The translations under genes and the position numbers were made by a program. Shown one piece after another: positions 52,475 through 61,557 of a stretch of 64,000 bases of DNA; position 1 is the stretch's first letter, and each line of letters opens with the position of its first letter. The stretch is taken from positions 62,001 through 126,000 of the forward strand of contig JAGXFV010000034.1 in NCBI GenBank assembly GCA_024637095.1. The letters run 5' to 3'. The DNA comes from Actinomycetes bacterium (GTDB lineage Bacteria; Actinomycetota; Thermoleophilia; RBG-16-64-13). A model generated the notes under the pieces. It was not told the DNA's origin, made no database searches, and was given only the letters and a program-made list of their open reading frames with translations.

Positions 52475-52828
52475 CTATTCCTCGTCGGTCTGTCCCACGA
52501 TGACGTTGACGACGGTGGTGATCAGCGAGATCAGCACAGCCGTGATGATGGCCCAGATGAAGCTATCGACCTCAAAGCGCGCGCCCATCAGCCAGTCGAG
52601 CAGTTGGACCATGATGCCGTTCACCACCAGGACGAACAGGCCTAGGGTCAGACAGGTCAAGGGGAGGGTCAGCACCTTGAAGATGGGCCGGACGACCGTA
52701 TTGAGCACACCGAGCACCAGGGCGGCGACCACCGCCCAGAGCACGGACGAAACCTCCACCTGGGGGAGAAGGTAGGCGGCCAGCAGGATGGCGACCGTGT
52801 TCGCTACCCAGCCAAGGACCCACTTCAT
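52475..52828 (-). CDS. Phage-holin-4-like membrane protein
   Basis: 117 residues with four hydrophobic helices (WVANTVAILLAAYLLPQV, LWAVVAALVLGVLNTVVRPIF, LTLPLTCLTLGLFVLVVNGIM, SFIWAIITAVLISLITTVVNV). NTVVRPIFKVLTLPLT is the signature of the Phage_holin_4_2 family, which is common in ordinary chromosomes and not evidence for a prophage. Its ATG overlaps the pafC stop codon by ATGA, so it is the third gene of the pafBC operon. Confidence 0.85.
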   Translation of the reverse strand: MKWVLGWVANTVAILLAAYLLPQVEVSSVLWAVVAALVLGVLNTVVRPIFKVLTLPLTCLTLGLFVLVVNGIMVQLLDWLMGARFEVDSFIWAIITAVLISLITTVVNVIVGQTDEE

Positions 52829-53802
52829 TCGGCCTCTCCTCTTTGATATTGACGCAGGAGCTCCGCAGCCTCTTCTCTGACCCGCTTTCTGAGTGCTAAC
52901 GGAGACTCAACCACAGCATTACCCCCATGGCTCAGCACCTCGCGCGCGAGCCAAGATTCCTCGAGATAGGGGATTCGCGCCCGGACGCGGTCTTCCTGCA
53001 CCTCCGCCTCCACCTCGTAGCCCTCTTCTTCCAGCCTCAGCCGTTGCCCGGCGGGGAAGCTGACGACGGCACTGGAGGCGCTGGCGGTGTGGCCCGGGAC
53101 CTCAGGGTGGGTGCGGTATTCGAGGGCGGGCCGAGGCTGGAACCGGCGGCCGGTCATTTCGACCGTTCGGATCCGGTCGAGACGGAAGGTGCGTTCGTCC
53201 GAAGCGGCCAGGCACCAGGTCTGCACGTACCAACCCGGACCTCCATGGATCAGGAAGTGGGGTTCCACCTCGCGCTCTGAGAGCTCTCCCCGGGCCGGCG
53301 TGAAGTACTCGATCCGAACGATCTCGCGGCCGGTCACGGCCTCGCGTAACTGAGCCAGGACCCGGTCGTCGGTGGGAAGCGCGTCGGTGATTCCCACCTC
53401 GTCGCCGATGTCGTCGCCCAGGGCCTGCGCCAGCTTTTTTCGCAGCGAGGCGAGGACCGCGCCTCCCTCTTCCCCCTCCTTGCCCAACAGGTCGAGCGCC
53501 AGGAAAAGGGCTTTGGCCAGTAGCGGGGTTAGCCGCGAGGGCCGCACGTGGGTCTCCGATAGGGTCTCGCGCGAGACCGAGACGTGGTCGCCCTCGAGGG
53601 ACGCGAAAATGATATAGGTTCCGCCTCCGTGATTCACCAGGTTCAGCAGGTTGATATCCGCCTCTATCTCGGCTCGGTCGAGTCCCAGGGCTTCCTCGAT
53701 GTCGGCCACGGGCACGGTGTCGGAGCGGGTTTCGTCCAGCAGGTAGTGCAGCAGCGTCAGTAGCCGCGAAAGGCGGTCCGGCGGAACCGGCGGCCGGCTC
53801 AC
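52825..53802 (-). CDS. pafC: WYL-domain transcriptional activator PafC
   Basis: Second subunit of the PafBC activator of the DNA-damage response. 325 residues. Winged helix (LSRLLTLLHYLLDETRSD, VADIEEALGLDRAEIEADINLL), then a WYL domain (FLIHGGPGWYVQTWCLAASDERTFRLDRI) and a WCX C-terminal domain. GTG 53802 overlaps the pafB stop codon (GTGA); an extra upstream frame to 54024 lies inside pafB and is not family-like. Confidence 0.92.
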   Translation of the reverse strand: MSRPPVPPDRLSRLLTLLHYLLDETRSDTVPVADIEEALGLDRAEIEADINLLNLVNHGGGTYIIFASLEGDHVSVSRETLSETHVRPSRLTPLLAKALFLALDLLGKEGEEGGAVLASLRKKLAQALGDDIGDEVGITDALPTDDRVLAQLREAVTGREIVRIEYFTPARGELSEREVEPHFLIHGGPGWYVQTWCLAASDERTFRLDRIRTVEMTGRRFQPRPALEYRTHPEVPGHTASASSAVVSFPAGQRLRLEEEGYEVEAEVQEDRVRARIPYLEESWLAREVLSHGGNAVVESPLALRKRVREEAAELLRQYQRGEAE

Positions 53803-54809
53803 TTCGGCTCCGGCTGCGAGGGGTGCACATCCAAGACTCGGCGCAGCATGCGCGTCAACTCTTGCCTGAGTTCCGGGGGAGCGACCACCTCGACCTTCGG
53901 TCCGAGTTGCAGGACCCAGGCGAGGAGTGCATCTCGGTCGGCGTATGGCACTTCGAAGAACTCCCCTCCGGTGTCCTGTCCGCCCACCCGCACGGCCTCC
54001 GCATACGTCCTCTCGAGCCACCATCCCAGGCTGGCGTCGGCGCGGAGCGTGACCGTTCCCACCGGGAAGTCCAGGAGCCAGGAGGGTCGGCTCCTGTAGT
54101 GCCCCGGATCATAGAGATCCGGCACCTCGAAGTCGCGCGGCTTCTTGCTGGCGAACTCAACGGTTCCCCGGATTCGCGAGAGCCGGAACATGCGCTCGCC
54201 GTCGTGCTCGTGATCGCGCCCCACCACGTACCAATGGCCGCCGATGCGGAACAAACCGTAGGGATCGAGTGAGCGGGTGGACTCGGCGTCGCGGTGGGCG
54301 GAGTAGTAGCCGAACCGCACGCTCTTGTGCCGGGCAACCGCGTCTTCGAGGCGCGCGAATTGGGGGCCTCTGTCTTGCGCCTCTTCGTCGGCAGGAAGGG
54401 CGAGGCCCAAGCTGGCCGGGTCGAGCGGATCGCCGGGTGCGGCTGCCATCAGGGTGGAAAGGGCCAGCCGAAGGGGCCGGACGTAGGGGAAGCTGCCCTC
54501 GAGCAGCACCAGCGCGGCGGCCAGGGCGCGCTCTTCCTCTGAGGTCAACTCGAGGTCGGGCAGGTAGAAGTTCTCCGGGGGGAGGTGGTAGAGGTCGCGG
54601 TCCCCATCGTCGTGAACCTCGACGACGATGCCGGAGCGGCTCAGCTCTTCCCGATCCATGTGGAAGCGGCGGGTGAAGGTGTCGACGCCCATGCCGGCGT
54701 AACCCTCCACTGATTGCGCGATTTCGTGCCCCGTCACCGGGCGGGCCCGAGAAAGGAGAAACGACACCAGAGAGAGCTGGCGGAGGAGTTTGTCGTCGCC
54801 GCGGGCCAT
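53799..54809 (-). CDS. pafB: WYL-domain transcriptional activator PafB
   Basis: 336 residues. Starts MARGDDKLLRQLSLVSFLLS, winged helix with VDTFTRRFHMDREEL, WYL domain (DPYGLFRIGGHWYVVGRDHEH, RMFRLSRIRGTVEF) and a C-terminal WCX domain. In mycobacteria PafBC activates recA-independent repair genes after DNA damage. It faces the AddB-like gene across 80 bases. TACCCT precedes the ATG by 7 bases, so it too may be leaderless. Confidence 0.93.
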   Translation of the reverse strand: MARGDDKLLRQLSLVSFLLSRARPVTGHEIAQSVEGYAGMGVDTFTRRFHMDREELSRSGIVVEVHDDGDRDLYHLPPENFYLPDLELTSEEERALAAALVLLEGSFPYVRPLRLALSTLMAAAPGDPLDPASLGLALPADEEAQDRGPQFARLEDAVARHKSVRFGYYSAHRDAESTRSLDPYGLFRIGGHWYVVGRDHEHDGERMFRLSRIRGTVEFASKKPRDFEVPDLYDPGHYRSRPSWLLDFPVGTVTLRADASLGWWLERTYAEAVRVGGQDTGGEFFEVPYADRDALLAWVLQLGPKVEVVAPPELRQELTRMLRRVLDVHPSQPEPK

Positions 54810-54816
54810 ATGGCTT

Positions 54817-54822
54817 AGGGTA
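54817..54822 (-). promoter_or_regulatory. Leaderless-type -10 box for pafB
   Basis: TACCCT on the minus strand ends 7 bases before ATG 54809. I did not find a TGTC element at the PafBC-dependent position upstream of it. Confidence 0.4.
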
Positions 54823-54859
54823 GCGTACGGAGGTCCGCGAGGGCAGCGTCTTCTGCCTT

Positions 54860-54882
54860 CTGTCCGCCGGGCGTAATACAAT
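54860..54882 (+). promoter_or_regulatory. Possible PafBC (RecA-NDp-like) promoter of the addB-like gene
   Basis: TACAAT (54877-54882) ends 7 bases before GTG 54890. Eight bases upstream of it is CTGTCCGCC (54860-54868); the known RecA-NDp consensus is TTGTCRGTG, then 8 bases, then TAnnnT. Five of nine positions match, including the TGTC core, at exact spacing. Weak match, right place. Confidence 0.4.
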
Positions 54883-54889
54883 TCGCCTG

Positions 54890-57800
54890 GTGAAGTCTCG
54901 CGAGGACATACAGCTCGAGGGCTGGGGCGCGGCCCTGGAAAGCCGGACTACGGCTCTCGCAAAGGGGCTGATCCTGGTGGTCGGTCCGCCCAACTCCGGC
55001 AAACTCGGACAGGTCATCGGCTGGTGGCAGGAGAATCGGGAGGCGGCTCCCTTTCTGCTGGCGCCCACGCGCATGGACGCGCACGAACTGGCTGCAGAAA
55101 CGCTCGAACGCAGCGGTGGAGCGGTTATCGGTGGCTCGCCTTCGGGCACCTTCGACGATCTGGCCGGGTTGATTCTCGGAGGCCGGCCTCGGCTGCTCGG
55201 CCCTCTCCGCCGGCAGCTCCTGCTGCGCCGCATTCTCAGTACCGCCGACCTGGAGTCGCTATCAGCGGTGGCGGAGCTACCCGGAGCGGCCCAGGCTTTC
55301 GAGAAGCTGCTGCGGGAACTGGGCGAGACCGGCATGCCCCTCGAAGGGGTGACGGCCTCTCTGGACGCCTGGGCGCAGGCCTCGGGAGATTCCTTGCCCG
55401 AGGAACTCGCTCTGGCCTATCAGAAGTACGCGTCGGCCTGCGCCAATCTCCAGGTGCAGGAACGCTGGGAGGTGCTCGCCCGGGCGGAGCGCGAACTTGG
55501 GAGCCCCGGGTGGCGGCGGCCGGTGGCCGCCCACGGATTCACCTCGTTCACCTCAGGCCAGCGCTCCTTGTTGCTCGCGCTCTCACAGCGGGCCCCGGCT
55601 CTCGTCACGCTGATCGGCGGCGCCCCCGCCTTCGACGAAGCCTGGGGGGCCGAGGTGGGTTGGTGGCAGCAACGAGCGACGGAAGTAGTCCACACGCGGC
55701 CGCAGAGAAGGGTCTACTCCTCGGCCGCGCTGGCCCGGCTGAACGCCTGGTGGAGCGGGGGAGAGCGGAGCGAAGGGCCCGGCGCCGGCGGAGACGCGGA
55801 GCAGGCGGCTGGGGAGTTCGGAGCCGGCGGAGACGCGGAGCAGGTGGCCGGGGAGGGCCTCTCCACCGATTCCAGTGACATCCGGGACTCCAAAGGGGCT
55901 ACCGGAGTCCGCTTCATGCTTTCCTCGGGTCGGCGAAACGAGGTAGAACTCGCAGGCCGGCAAATCGTGGGCCTGCTGCGAGAAGGGGTTCCACCGAATG
56001 AGATCGCGGTGGTGGTCCGCGATTCATCTCGCTGGCACCGGATAGTCGGTCAGGTCTTTGGCGCCTACGGCATTCCCCACCGCATCGACATGCGCATGGA
56101 GTTCGGGGCAACCGGTCTTGGGGCCGCTTTCCTCCAGGCGGTGCGCGGCTTCATCCGCGGAGACTTCGTCGAGCTCTTTGCCTATCTGCGCGGCCCGTAT
56201 TCTCCTTACGAGGCCGACCTCGTCGACCGGCTGGAGATAGAGATCCACGATGGAGCCCATCATTCCGGGGCCGCGCTCCGGCGCGCCGTCGCCCGCTCCC
56301 TACCGGACCAGTTGGGGCCAGTGCGCGATGTGTTGGGTAAGGACGAGTCCGGCCGGGCGATCATTCGCGCCGAGGCGGTCGAGGTCCTGGCCCGTGCCTT
56401 CCTCGAGCGGGCATCCTTCGGTATTCAGGACGTCCGCCAGATGGAAGCGGACGCGCGCGCCTTCGGCGTCGTCCGCGGTTGGGCCAAGGAACTCTCGCAC
56501 TGGCAACCCGCCTTTTCCGAAGAGCGGCCTCCGACTGCGGCCGAAGCGTTGTCCGCGCTCTCCAAGAGCCTTCTCCCCATGGGTCGCGAAGAGGAGGGGG
56601 GAGTCGTTCACGTGCTGACGGCGGTGCGTGCGCGGGCCCGGCGGTTCACCGTGATGTTCATGCTTGGGCTGGTCGAGGGGGAGTTCCCCCGACCCCGGGA
56701 AGAGAAGGGGCTGCTGAGCCGCCGCCGCCGGCAGGAGGCCAACCGCGCTTGCGGCCGGGAGTTGTTCGTCGACCGGGGCCCGAATGAGGAAGAGGCGCTT
56801 TTTGCTCTGCTTCTGTCCCGGCCGTGGCAGCTTCTCTATCTCTCCGCCCGGGATACGGAGGACGAGGGGGAGGAGGTCATCCCCTCGCCCTTGTACGAAG
56901 CCTGTCGCACTGTGCTGGGGGCGGACGCGGCAAACCTGCGCCGCGGCCTCGAGGAGGTGGTTCATCAGGTTGGAGAGGCCCCTTCCGAACGGGAGTATCT
57001 GCGGGCCTGCGCGGTCCAGGGACTGCTCCCCGACGCCGCGCTGGGTTTGAGCGGGCGGCTCGAGACGGCGCCCTGGCGGCGACCTCCCTGCCTGACTCGG
57101 CCCGAGGTTATGAGGCAGTTGGCCGCCCAGGAGTCTTTTGCCGCACGGCAACTGGAGTCTTATGCGCAATGTCCTTTCCGCTGGTTCATCGAGGACCTGA
57201 TAGGCCGCGAGAAGATGGAGCGGGAAATGGACCCGCTGGCTCGGGGAATCGTGCTTCACGGGTCCCTCAGCGCAATCTACGGCGCGCTGGCGAAGGAGGG
57301 CCTGCTCCCGCTAGGCCCTGCGGCGCTCGATCGCGCCTTCGAGCTGGTCGAGCTTCATGTGGCCCTGGCGCTCGGCGCCTTTGACCACCACGGGACCGCC
57401 GGTCAGCGGCGGCTGCTCTTGACCGCGGCGACCCGAGATCTCAAGCGCTTCTGCGAGTTCGACGCTAACTCGGGCAGCCAACTGCGACCCGCCTTGTTCG
57501 AGCACTCCGTCGGCACGAATGGCGGTGTGGACATCGGCGGCGTCAAGATTCGTGGACGGATCGACCGCATCGACGTCGACGGTCAGGGACGCAATTTTGT
57601 GATCGATTACAAGGGGGGCACCTCGGTGCCCAAACTGCCTTTCTCGCAGGAAGGCAATCTGCAGATCCCGCTCTATCTTTGCGCCCTTCGCGCCGAAGGC
57701 CCCCAGACTCAGGTGGCGGGCGGAGCCTACGCGGCGCTGGGTTCCAACAAGCGGTCGGGGATCTATCTGGAGGGTGTCGAGGTAGGAGGCTGGGCACGGA

Positions 57801-57979
57801 AGCCGCTCGATGAGGAAGAGCTTCTCGAGGAACTGGAGCTATGCGTGGCCAGAGCCGGCGAAGCGGCCGAGGGCATTCGCAACGGCAGGATCCCGTCCGA
57901 TCCCGCTGAGGGGAAGTGCCCGTTCTACTGCGATCTGGCGGGCATATGCCGTTCGGGACGACGCCCGGAGAGGTTCTGA
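54890..57979 (+). CDS. AddB/AdnA-like helicase-nuclease subunit with Fe-S PD-(D/E)XK nuclease
   Basis: First subunit of a double-strand-break resection machine. 1029 residues. The ATPase half is degenerate: GPPNSGKLGQVI has Leu where Walker A needs Ser/Thr. The C-terminal nuclease (about 730-1029) has YAQCPFRWFIEDLIG, GRIDRIDVDG and FVIDYKGGT (the PD-(D/E)XK core), and a final CPFYCDLAGIC. Together the cysteines form the 4-Cys set for an iron-sulfur cluster, as in AddB. A duplicated Gly/Ala/Glu linker of 2x13 residues lies near residue 300. It is coupled to the next gene (TGATG). Transcribed away from pafB. Confidence 0.85.
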   Translation: MKSREDIQLEGWGAALESRTTALAKGLILVVGPPNSGKLGQVIGWWQENREAAPFLLAPTRMDAHELAAETLERSGGAVIGGSPSGTFDDLAGLILGGRPRLLGPLRRQLLLRRILSTADLESLSAVAELPGAAQAFEKLLRELGETGMPLEGVTASLDAWAQASGDSLPEELALAYQKYASACANLQVQERWEVLARAERELGSPGWRRPVAAHGFTSFTSGQRSLLLALSQRAPALVTLIGGAPAFDEAWGAEVGWWQQRATEVVHTRPQRRVYSSAALARLNAWWSGGERSEGPGAGGDAEQAAGEFGAGGDAEQVAGEGLSTDSSDIRDSKGATGVRFMLSSGRRNEVELAGRQIVGLLREGVPPNEIAVVVRDSSRWHRIVGQVFGAYGIPHRIDMRMEFGATGLGAAFLQAVRGFIRGDFVELFAYLRGPYSPYEADLVDRLEIEIHDGAHHSGAALRRAVARSLPDQLGPVRDVLGKDESGRAIIRAEAVEVLARAFLERASFGIQDVRQMEADARAFGVVRGWAKELSHWQPAFSEERPPTAAEALSALSKSLLPMGREEEGGVVHVLTAVRARARRFTVMFMLGLVEGEFPRPREEKGLLSRRRRQEANRACGRELFVDRGPNEEEALFALLLSRPWQLLYLSARDTEDEGEEVIPSPLYEACRTVLGADAANLRRGLEEVVHQVGEAPSEREYLRACAVQGLLPDAALGLSGRLETAPWRRPPCLTRPEVMRQLAAQESFAARQLESYAQCPFRWFIEDLIGREKMEREMDPLARGIVLHGSLSAIYGALAKEGLLPLGPAALDRAFELVELHVALALGAFDHHGTAGQRRLLLTAATRDLKRFCEFDANSGSQLRPALFEHSVGTNGGVDIGGVKIRGRIDRIDVDGQGRNFVIDYKGGTSVPKLPFSQEGNLQIPLYLCALRAEGPQTQVAGGAYAALGSNKRSGIYLEGVEVGGWARKPLDEEELLEELELCVARAGEAAEGIRNGRIPSDPAEGKCPFYCDLAGICRSGRRPERF
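55781..55858 (+). repeat. Two tandem 39-bp repeats inside the addB-like gene
   Basis: Two copies of a 39-base unit, encoding GAGGDAEQAAGEF and GAGGDAEQVAGEG. Both are in frame, so the reading frame is preserved. It looks like a flexible linker made by duplication rather than a mobile repeat. Confidence 0.8.
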
Positions 57980-60900
57980 TGAGTCTCACTCCCGAGCAGC
58001 TCAGAGTGATCGACAACCGGCAGCGCACCATTTTCGTGGAGGCAGGGGCGGGGACAGGCAAGACCACCCTGCTGGTCGAGTGCTATCTGTCGGGGCTGCT
58101 CGATGATGGCCTGACGCCCGAGCAGTTGCCCACGGTTACCTTCACCCGGAAGGCGGCCGGGGAAATGCGCGAGCGCATCCGGCGGGCCTTGCTCGACCGA
58201 GGGGAGAGCTCCCTGGCTCGCCGCGTGCAGGACGCTCCGATAGGCACGATCGACAGCTTTGCCGCCCGCATCCTCCGGGACAACGCGCTGGAGGCGGGGC
58301 TCGACCCCGCGTTCGGCATTCTCGAGGAAGAACGCGCGGCGATGCTGGCGCGGCAGGCGTTCCGGGACGTGTGGGAGAGGCACGTCTGCTCGTTGGATGA
58401 TGAGCGCCTCATCAGGCTGAGCCCCTTCCAGAAAGAGGTCGAGGGCGGCGTCATCCGCCTCTACGAAAGACTTCGGGGGACCGGCCGAGAGGAACCCGGC
58501 CTGGCGTTGCCGGTCTCGCCCGCTTCGGGGCCGGCCGAGACCGCTCTTCGCGGCGCTCTTCGAGCCTTCCTCGACGCGGGCATAGACCGGGCCAAAGCGT
58601 CGCGAAGAATGCTCGAAAACCTGGACAAGGCCGAGGCCTGCTGCGAATGGCTCGACCGCTCGGTCTCGCAGGCTCCCGAGCAAAGGATCGCTGAGCTGCG
58701 CAGCTTTCGGCCGAACGCGGGCTGTGGCAACGCACAGCAAAAGGCGCTGATCAAGGCCGTGCAGGAGGAGAGCGAGCAGCTCCACGGTGTCCTCGGAGAG
58801 CAGCTCCTAGCTCCGCTCGTCGGCCAAGTGGATGAACTGCTCGCCGGGCTGCACTGCGAGTATCGAAAACGCAAGAAGGATCTTGGTGCCCTCGACTTTC
58901 TCGACCTCACCCTGGAAGCTCGGTCCTTGCTCGAGCGGGGTCTCGGAGGGCTGGAGCGCGGTTCCCGCCTGATAGTGGATGAGTTCCAAGACACCAATGA
59001 TCTGCAGTGCGCCTTCTTTGACGCTCTGGGCGCGGAGGCCGTCCTCACCGTCGGGGACCAGTTCCAGAGCATCTACGGGTTCCGCAACGCCGATGTCGAG
59101 GTATTCCGCGATCGCAGACGGAAGACCCCGGCCGGCTCGGTTTTCACCCTGAGCACCAACTTCCGCTCGCGGCAGCCGGTGTTGAACGTGGTCAACCGGG
59201 TGTTTAGGGATGAGGCCCTTCTGGGGTCGGAACTGCTCGAACTCACTTCGGGTAGAGAACCGGGGGAACCAAGGCAGGGCCGGACCGTACCCCGCGGCAC
59301 GCTTGGCCCCGCTGCCGAGCTGGTTCTCCTTGAGAAGGAGGCAGGAGAAGACTGGCGGGAACAGGAGGCCCGCGCGTCCGCCGAATGCGTGGAGCGACTG
59401 GTGCGCGCGGAGGGATGGAAGCAGCGGGACGTGGTCATGCTTTTCCACTCGACGCGGGGGATCGATGCATACGCCGAGGAGCTGGAGAAACGGGGCCTGG
59501 GTGCCTACGTGGTGGGCGGGCGAAACTACTACGCCAGCGAGGAAGTCGGTGACGTTCTCTCTCTCCTGAGCCTGTTGGTCAACCCGCACGACGATCTTGC
59601 CTTGCTTACCGTGCTCCGGTCACCCTTTGTCGGGGTGGCGGATGACGTGCTCTATCTGCTTCGGGAAAAAGCGGGAAGGCGGCGGTCGGCCGGCAGGAGA
59701 CCCTTTCTCTGGACTGCGCTCCTTGCCATCGCGAAGGGGCAGGAGCTGCCGGGCGCCACCGAAGACGAGGTGGCTTCCCTGCGCGATCTGGCGGCCGGGG
59801 TCTTCGAACTGCGCGGGCGCATGGGGACTCCGGGCTTGGGTGGATTCGTCGAGCAAACGCTCAACCGCTTCGACTACGATCTGGCCGTGCTTCGGGCTCC
59901 ACAGGGCCGCCGGCGGTTTGCCAATCTGCGGAAGCTAATGCGCCTCGCCGATGAATTCGAGTCGGTAGAGGGCCCCGATCCAGCGTCTCTGGTCGCCTAT
60001 TTGCGGGAGAGGGGGGAACTCGCGGCCAAGGAAGGGAACGCGGCCATCCTGGCTGAGGGTGAGGACGTAGTCCGGCTGATGACCATCCATCAGGCGAAGG
60101 GCCTGGAGTTTCCCGTCGTGCTGGTGGTGGGCCTGGGCTCGGAAGGCGGGGGTCGTGAAGGCTCGGGCATGCACGTGGGACTTCGCGGAGAGGTCGGGTT
60201 TCGCCTCAAGCTGGAGGATGGTCCCGGTAGCCCCACTGTGGAGTACGGGCCGGTCGAGGCGATTATCGAGGAGGCCTCGCGACGGGAGGCCGAGGAACTG
60301 CTGCGCAAGGCATACGTGGCCTTGACCCGGGCCGAAGAACGACTGGTGCTGGTGGGAACCCGCGGGATCGCTGGAACCGCGCTCCTCCATTACCTTGAAG
60401 GCCTGTTCCAACTCCCGCCTGCGCCGGATCTCGAGGCGCCTGGGCGTCGGGCGGCTCCAGATTCCCGGGCGGCGTCAGATCTCCGAGAATCACCCAGGGC
60501 GGATGAATCGGAAGGCGACGGCTTCTACCCCTGGGAGGGTATCGACCTCAGGGTGCGGTCGGTGGCGGCGCTGCCCGCCACCGACGCTCCCATAAGGCCG
60601 GTGCACGCGCCACCCATGCGGGGGACCGCAGCGCCGGAACCGCCGGCCTTTGTCGACCGGCTCGCACCCAAAGCGCCCGTGAAGAGCGTGAGCTTTTCTT
60701 CGCTTTCTCTCTACCAGGCCTGCCCCAGACGCTACTTCCTCGAATCGGTGTTGGGACTCGGTGAGTTCGATGCCCGTGGGGGAGCCGCCCCCGAGGGGGC
60801 GGCCGCCGAAGCCCAGCCCGAGTTCGACGACGGCGCTGGTGGCCAGGGACTTCCCGGGACGCCCGGTGCCGACGAGGCCGGGGGAGTGTCAGGGAGGGAC

Positions 60901-61557
60901 GTGGGCGTAGTGGTTCACCAGATGCTGGAGGAGGCCGAACTCGCCAGGGCCGAGCCCAGCGAGGCCGCACTGGCCCACCTGGCGGCCCGCGCTCTGGAGA
61001 GGCACGGTCTATTGGGGGAACCACACATCGCCCACACCAGCGTGCGCCTCGCCTGCGCCTTCTGGCGGTCGCCTGTCGCCACTCATCCCGGACTGGCTGC
61101 GGGCGGAAAAGAGGTGCCCTTCGTCTTCGCGCACCGCGGTTTCCTGGTGCGCGGGATATTCGACCTGCTGCTCGAGGAGGGCCGGGGTGCCTGGCACATC
61201 CTCGACTACAAGACCAACCGCCTGGGGGACGGGGGGCGCGCCGAGGCGGTGAAGCATTACCGGCTGCAGGCGGCGATCTACGCACTGGCGGCGCTACAAG
61301 CAGGGAAAGAACAGGCTAGGGTTTCCTTCCTTTTTCTGGAGCAGCCGGACGAGCTCGTGACTTATGAATTCGCCGTCTCTGATCGGCCCGCGCTCGAGGA
61401 GGAACTGAGGGCTGCGCTCGAGGGCATCGAGAATGGCAACTTCGCGGCGCGGGAGGGCCACTGCGACTGGTGCTCGGTCGAGGGGCTCTGTGGGCCGCGT
61501 GGCGTGGATGGACCAGGGTTCTTCGTTGGTGGTAACATAGCCGCTCGCGGGGCGTAG
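57979..61557 (+). CDS. AddA/AdnB-like UvrD-type helicase-nuclease subunit
   Basis: Motor of the resection complex. 1192 residues. Intact helicase motifs: VEAGAGTGKTTLLV (I), TFTRKAAGEMRERI (Ia), GTIDSFAARIL, LIVDEFQDTND (II), GDQFQSIYGFRNAD (III), LSTNFRSRQPV (IV), MTIHQAKGLEFPVVLV (V) and YVALTRAEERLVLV (VI). The C-terminal nuclease has VRGIFDLLLEEGRGAWHILDYKTNRL. YQACPRRYF and the terminal CDWCSVEGLC suggest an iron-sulfur cluster here as well. The ATG at 57979 overlaps the previous stop codon by one base. Its stop codon lies inside the tRNA-Pro gene. Confidence 0.9.
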   Translation: MSLTPEQLRVIDNRQRTIFVEAGAGTGKTTLLVECYLSGLLDDGLTPEQLPTVTFTRKAAGEMRERIRRALLDRGESSLARRVQDAPIGTIDSFAARILRDNALEAGLDPAFGILEEERAAMLARQAFRDVWERHVCSLDDERLIRLSPFQKEVEGGVIRLYERLRGTGREEPGLALPVSPASGPAETALRGALRAFLDAGIDRAKASRRMLENLDKAEACCEWLDRSVSQAPEQRIAELRSFRPNAGCGNAQQKALIKAVQEESEQLHGVLGEQLLAPLVGQVDELLAGLHCEYRKRKKDLGALDFLDLTLEARSLLERGLGGLERGSRLIVDEFQDTNDLQCAFFDALGAEAVLTVGDQFQSIYGFRNADVEVFRDRRRKTPAGSVFTLSTNFRSRQPVLNVVNRVFRDEALLGSELLELTSGREPGEPRQGRTVPRGTLGPAAELVLLEKEAGEDWREQEARASAECVERLVRAEGWKQRDVVMLFHSTRGIDAYAEELEKRGLGAYVVGGRNYYASEEVGDVLSLLSLLVNPHDDLALLTVLRSPFVGVADDVLYLLREKAGRRRSAGRRPFLWTALLAIAKGQELPGATEDEVASLRDLAAGVFELRGRMGTPGLGGFVEQTLNRFDYDLAVLRAPQGRRRFANLRKLMRLADEFESVEGPDPASLVAYLRERGELAAKEGNAAILAEGEDVVRLMTIHQAKGLEFPVVLVVGLGSEGGGREGSGMHVGLRGEVGFRLKLEDGPGSPTVEYGPVEAIIEEASRREAEELLRKAYVALTRAEERLVLVGTRGIAGTALLHYLEGLFQLPPAPDLEAPGRRAAPDSRAASDLRESPRADESEGDGFYPWEGIDLRVRSVAALPATDAPIRPVHAPPMRGTAAPEPPAFVDRLAPKAPVKSVSFSSLSLYQACPRRYFLESVLGLGEFDARGGAAPEGAAAEAQPEFDDGAGGQGLPGTPGADEAGGVSGRDVGVVVHQMLEEAELARAEPSEAALAHLAARALERHGLLGEPHIAHTSVRLACAFWRSPVATHPGLAAGGKEVPFVFAHRGFLVRGIFDLLLEEGRGAWHILDYKTNRLGDGGRAEAVKHYRLQAAIYALAALQAGKEQARVSFLFLEQPDELVTYEFAVSDRPALEEELRAALEGIENGNFAAREGHCDWCSVEGLCGPRGVDGPGFFVGGNIAARGA

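Follow-up and report, generated by a model that had tools for sequence, protein, structure and literature searches.

In mycobacteria, the promoters of the PafBC damage regulon share the consensus tTGTCRgtg-8 nt-TannnT (PMC5656591). Activation of PafBC occurs when ssDNA binds to its WYL domains, and the active form enables RNA polymerase-SigA to work at promoters carrying a −26 motif, with which PafB makes contact; the M. smegmatis PafBC residues required for this binding of ssDNA have been mapped (PMC11804915). AdnAB, UvrA and SSB are induced by PafBC in mycobacteria (PMC8151990; PMC8223512), and the association of PafBC with the Pup-proteasome locus is a context trait reported for Actinobacteria (PMC8223512). 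DriD of Caulobacter is likewise a WYL-domain activator that binds ssDNA, acting in a non-SOS damage response (PMC12340889); it comes from a different phylum, and its likeness to PafBC is taken from its description. In a literature search of incomplete coverage, no paper joining PafBC with addAB linkage was found.

Whereas mycobacterial pafBC lies with pafA, the pafBC genes analysed here are divergent from a pair of addBA-like genes, in an uncultured Actinomycetota lineage without a detectable Pup ligase. They lie in a 64-kb stretch of DNA (the window) from a genome of 2.47 Mb in 49 contigs (G000). The features of the locus, in window coordinates, are:

52475..52828, minus strand: gene of a Phage_holin_4_2 small membrane protein (Pfam PF04020, E=3e-31), third gene of the predicted pafBC operon
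52825..53802, minus strand: pafC, the HTH_PafC-WYL-WCX subunit (PF19187, 37.8 bits with a cut-off of 32; WYL; WCX)
53799..54809, minus strand: pafB, the HTH-WYL-WCX subunit (WYL and WCX by Pfam; closest solved chains PafBC/PafB)
54817..54822, minus strand: pafB −10, TACCCT, 7 nt before the ATG; pafB is probably leaderless
54859..54866, plus strand: −26 box TCTGTCCG, proposed PafB contact site, at 16/16 readable addB promoters of the family
54877..54882, plus strand: addB −10, TACAAT, 94% identity across genera, 12 nt from TGTC
54890..57979, plus strand: addB-like subunit gene with a GTG start (PF12705, E=1e-32)
57973..61557, plus strand: addA-like subunit gene, starting at GTG 57973 or ATG 57979 (PF00580, PF13361, PF12705)

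The gap between the pafB ATG (54809, minus) and the addB-like GTG (54890, plus) is exactly 80 bases, and the coordinates confirm the preliminary description of pafB, pafC and holin genes with a resection enzyme diverging from them. The pafB/pafC and pafC/Phage_holin_4_2 genes overlap by 4 nt each, and because of these overlaps the three genes likely form an operon. The last product is a holin only by its Pfam family name. Its gene adjoins pafC also in three relatives (G001, G004, G012) and weakly in two genomes with a fused pafBC; since it is kept behind pafC in several genera, the protein may have a functional link to the operon. On the other side of the locus, a rex gene lies behind the addA-like gene.

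PafB and PafC form the single pair of this kind in the G000 genome. PafB matched the B half of the solved PafBC structure 6sj9 with 55.7 bits and its C half with 35.5 bits, while PafC matched the C half with 65.3 bits and the B half with 25.3 bits. The closest solved chains were the B half of 6sj9 and M. smegmatis PafB (7p5x, 9fnd) for PafB, and the C half of 6sj9 and M. smegmatis PafC (7p5x) for PafC. Pfam recognised WYL and WCX domains in both proteins and HTH_PafC above the cut-off in PafC; the HTH of PafB was unrecognised by Pfam, yet it aligns to that of M. smegmatis PafB. By alignment, nearly all residues that M. smegmatis PafBC needs to bind ssDNA are retained in the two subunits: PafB R181, Y196, R208, R211 and R214 of that species are R179, Y194, R206, R209 and R212 here, and PafC R201 and R204 are R207 and R210. 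The exception among the ssDNA-binding residues is M. smegmatis PafB R204, which is replaced by H202. The activator thus resembles the mycobacterial one, a heterodimer of HTH-WYL-WCX subunits with the ssDNA-contact residues kept. Across the class, PafC-type matches were found in 37/37 genomes tested, and members often carry a natural PafB-PafC fusion of ~700 aa.

For the divergent enzyme, the preliminary description had allowed either an AddAB- or an AdnAB-like identity. AddA combines an SF1A helicase with a nuclease, and AddB is a nuclease with Fe-S cysteines and an inactive helicase fold; AdnAB has a UvrD-like motor and a nuclease in both subunits. The family profile of the first subunit matched B. 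subtilis AddB (3u44_B) at 3.5e-54 versus 6e-28 for mycobacterial AdnA, and the best solved chain for the second subunit was AddA (3u44_A, 1.2e-45) versus 6e-22 for AdnB. The AddB-like subunit has a Walker A motif (GPPNSGK), a PD-(D/E)XK nuclease and Fe-S type cysteines (C761...C1010-X3-C1014-X5-C1020), and Pfam recognised no UvrD domain in it; the AddA-like subunit has a UvrD-type helicase and a PD-(D/E)XK nuclease. We take the cysteine pattern to resemble the Fe-S motif of B. subtilis AddB, with a spacing that is presumably CX2C-X5-C in that protein versus CX3C-X5-C here. An AdnAB identity was rejected because the Add chains match better and the first subunit is without a recognised UvrD domain. 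By its domains, its cysteines and the solved chains that it matches best, the two-subunit enzyme is of the AddAB type, not the AdnAB type. It shares with B. subtilis AddAB two nuclease domains and one recognised helicase, but differs from it in the proposed PafBC control, and the scores of both subunits fall far short of the NCBIfam equivalog cut-offs for AddA and AddB. With mycobacterial AdnAB, which is induced through PafBC (PMC8151990, PMC8223512), it has in common that both are actinobacterial two-subunit resection enzymes.

The putative addB promoter reads TCTGTCCG-CCGGGCGTAA-TACAAT (54859-54882; box, N10 spacer, −10). The TGTC core (54861-54864) lies 12 nt from TACAAT (54877-54882), the mycobacterial spacing from TGTC to the TA of the −10, just as had been claimed. 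The GTG of addB follows 7 nt past the −10, and because of this short distance the transcript is probably leaderless. The earlier comparison with the mycobacterial RecA-NDp (P1) layout holds for the spacing but only partly for the letters: only 5/9 positions agree with the literal TTGTCRGTG, which is not found here, and the consensus of the lineage is TC[TC]GTCCG, with GTC.G common to the mycobacterial box. A search of both strands of the 64-kb window gave a single TGTC-N12-TANNNT, and 0.3% of dinucleotide shuffles of the 80-base intergenic contained this pattern; for the tighter [CT]GTCCG-N10-TASAAT the figure was 0.005%. With a matrix derived from the family, the addB site scores 23.1 and the runner-up in the window 14.3. 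On the pafB side, TAnnCT is found 6-8 nt ahead of the pafB ATG in 10/11 relatives read, mostly after GTGCGC or similar.

We compared the locus within its family, sampled as 18 genomes of 12 genera; many of the relatives' genomes are fragmented draft assemblies. Outside the genus of G000, the AddB proteins are ~34-43% identical to its AddB. The divergent pafBC and addBA arrangement was found in 16/16 genomes in which both were readable, and the box stands at its exact spacing in 15 of the 16 readable addB promoters and is one base closer in the remaining genome (G006). The addB start codons mostly lie 4-10 nt past the −10. Between genera, identity is 85% in the box and 94% in the −10, and 26% in the 38 bases upstream, 32% in the spacer and 31% in the 10 bases after. 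Flanks and spacer are unconserved, and the box and −10 form a functional footprint that does not merely reflect relatedness. Six genomes of a second family (f6), also of this class, likewise have addB divergent from pafBC, here as a fused gene, and the same box lies between the two, oriented toward addB. In three further families (f4, f5 and f7), pafBC and addB are unlinked, and addB is without the box.

Neighbourhood, spacing, the letters of the core and the kinds of function among the targets (below) point to PafBC as the reader of the box. One alternative is that another damage-responsive regulator, e.g., ClgR or another WYL or HTH protein, reads the box and that the neighbourhood of PafBC is incidental. 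In favour of this, recognition of the mycobacterial P1 promoter by ClgR is reported in work cited by PMC5656591, the box departs from its mycobacterial counterpart, and other families of the class have both a box-free addB and an unlinked PafBC. However, two families have the box in the gap between pafBC and addB, the PafBC promoter has exactly the same GTC.G core and distance to the −10, and the sole PafBC pair of the genome has kept its HTH and WYL features. We therefore regard another reader as unlikely, and the comparative tests support the interpretation of the addB promoter as a predicted PafBC target.

The association of PafBC with the Pup-proteasome locus was not seen in this lineage. 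No Pup ligase (PafA, PF03136) was detected in 61 relatives of the class, and the C. glutamicum control was positive. The Pup-locus association is a context trait and not a trait of the PafBC protein family.

Further candidate targets in G000 were collected by a pattern search and in chosen stretches. The strict pattern YGTCNGN10TANAAT gave 6 matches in the 2.47 Mb, and the reversed pattern, which served as a control, gave 0. The six sites precede addB, uvrA, nrdR-nrdJ, a DUF1858 gene, rseP and a FAD oxidoreductase gene (uvrA, rseP and the FAD oxidoreductase were named by eye from translations). The GTG of uvrA is 8 nt past the −10, as expected for a leaderless gene. The box ahead of nrdR, which is followed by the B12-dependent ribonucleotide reductase gene nrdJ, scores 22.3 (G000:C42:13933). 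Slightly relaxed forms, in the −10 or the box, were found at lexA (TCTGTCCG-N10-TACTCT, as TCTGTCCGGCGGCGCTGC-TACTCT; G000:C15) and at the gene of a YhaM-like OB/HD exonuclease. The motif is thus present at other repair genes, which the preliminary description had made a test of its reading. It had also presented the locus as a compact one with the regulator beside a main target; the box does recur at the same orthologous promoters, but the locus is not self-contained and looks like one node of a small regulon.

Three side observations concern individual sites. The boxed DUF1858 gene (G000:C36:109793) is leaderless, encodes 74 aa and has no known damage link. An identical 22-mer, CGTCCGGTCCGGCTGATAGAAT, occurs at G000:C40:20227, G001:C26:99986 and G006:C1:2464358; depending on the genus, the gene that it precedes is either the FAD oxidoreductase gene or the YhaM-like gene, and the flanks are unrelated. 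At G012:C24:8766, a boxed leaderless gene (start 5 nt past the −10) encodes a product that resembles a PD-(D/E)XK-type nuclease by eye; Pfam gave no match on its first 90 residues.

Across the 18 genomes of the family, the strict pattern gave 83 matches versus 24 for the reversed control, and by our own count 37 of about 82 matches lie at addB, uvrA, the YhaM-like gene, rpsF-ssb, nrdR-nrdJ or rarA. Orthologous upstream regions were counted as boxed at a score of at least 13, which is reached by 0.3-0.4% of same-size background windows. By this measure, the box was found upstream of uvrA in 8/15 genomes, of the YhaM-like gene in 11/16 and of rpsF-ssb in 7/16, although not of rpsF-ssb in G000; the SSB gene comes after rpsF at the loci checked. 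In f6 (8 genomes), 40 strict matches were found versus 10 in the control, with addB, recJ and nrdJ as recurrent boxed genes; the box stands directly ahead of nrdJ, and in four genomes ahead of a leaderless recJ that starts 6 nt past the −10. Two matches (G006, G014) seemed to lead a coaE-uvrB operon, but this was rejected as coaE is followed by a gene other than uvrB.

The predicted targets resemble those of the mycobacterial regulon in including an end-resection enzyme, UvrA and SSB, but lexA, nrdR-nrdJ, recJ (in f6) and the YhaM-like gene are boxed here, unlike in mycobacteria. The reverse is true of recA, a classical PafBC target: none of the recA upstream regions scored at least 13 (0/17 genomes), contrary to the earlier expectation of a motif there. 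A site with a score of 14.7 upstream of G000 recA was rejected because it is inside the coding region of the upstream gene, and no convincing site was found at a promoter further up the recA operon, which was inspected in G000.

Does the conserved sequence simply represent the constitutive promoter type of leaderless genes in this lineage, without damage control? The start lies 4-10 nt past the −10 in 24/47 matches with long ORFs, and some targets (rpsF, rseP) are housekeeping genes. However, a general promoter type is hard to reconcile with the rarity of the strict sites, 6 in the whole 2.47 Mb and a single one in the 64-kb window, or with the pafB promoter, which is predicted to be leaderless and lies in the same intergenic without the −26 box. 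The sites moreover cluster at repair and dNTP-supply genes, and the recA upstream regions lack the box. We consider a constitutive role very improbable.

LexA and RecA are encoded in nearly all these genomes, and for this reason the box regulon may be a second pathway beside SOS, overlapping with it at lexA. In G000, a LexA box, GAACATAAGTTC, lies ~40 nt downstream of the −10 of lexA, and box and LexA box occur together at lexA also in G001, G004 and G005. These GAAC-N4-GTTC boxes, and the presence of LexA in most genomes of the family, would be compatible with control of addBA by LexA (SOS) instead of PafBC. No LexA box was found by sequence inspection in the pafB-addB intergenic, nor was one found at uvrA or the YhaM-like gene, and direct SOS control of addBA has almost no likelihood.

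We consider it highly likely that the 80-base divergent promoter pair is part of a circuit in which PafBC, activated by ssDNA after damage, switches on addBA together with uvrA, lexA, nrdR-nrdJ and the YhaM-like gene. The scheme takes ssDNA sensing, sigma adaptation, the binding of the box by PafBC, damage induction and a loop by analogy from the mycobacterial work. After DNA damage, ssDNA would bind the WYL domains of PafBC, and the activated protein would join RNA polymerase at promoters with the −26 box, ten bases before the −10, acting by sigma adaptation. It would then turn on the adjoining addBA and, elsewhere in the genome, uvrA, lexA, nrdR-nrdJ and the YhaM-like exonuclease gene. AddAB produces ssDNA at broken ends, so that pafBC and addBA side by side may act as a positive loop; lexA, which has a LexA box downstream, may on activation contribute to resetting SOS. 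Some observations count against this PafBC scheme: the boxed rseP, DUF1858 and FAD oxidoreductase genes are without a clear damage link, the box has TGTCCG versus TTGTCRGTG, recA is not boxed, addB is box-free in the families with unlinked pafBC (f4, f5 and f7), and a histidine replaces M. smegmatis PafB R204.

The mycobacterial PafBC damage regulon is known; what appears new here is a variant of it with pafBC linked to addBA. The lineage is an Actinomycetota group that has PafBC and no detectable Pup ligase, with the regulator beside a resection enzyme instead. Its predicted regulon retains the functional core of resection, excision repair, SSB and dNTP supply and drops recA, and the analysis yields a lineage-specific promoter code with a short list of targets. 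As a speculation, to which we give well below even credence, PafBC may originally have been a stand-alone ssDNA-triggered regulator paired with AddAB in pupylation-free Actinomycetota that joined the Pup-proteasome locus later, the pafBC and addBA pair being a relic of a self-amplifying circuit. The enzyme adjoining the regulator is probably the source of the ssDNA to which the regulator responds, and the ssDNA-sensing model thereby becomes testable, with the neighbouring enzyme as the possible supplier of the regulator's ligand.
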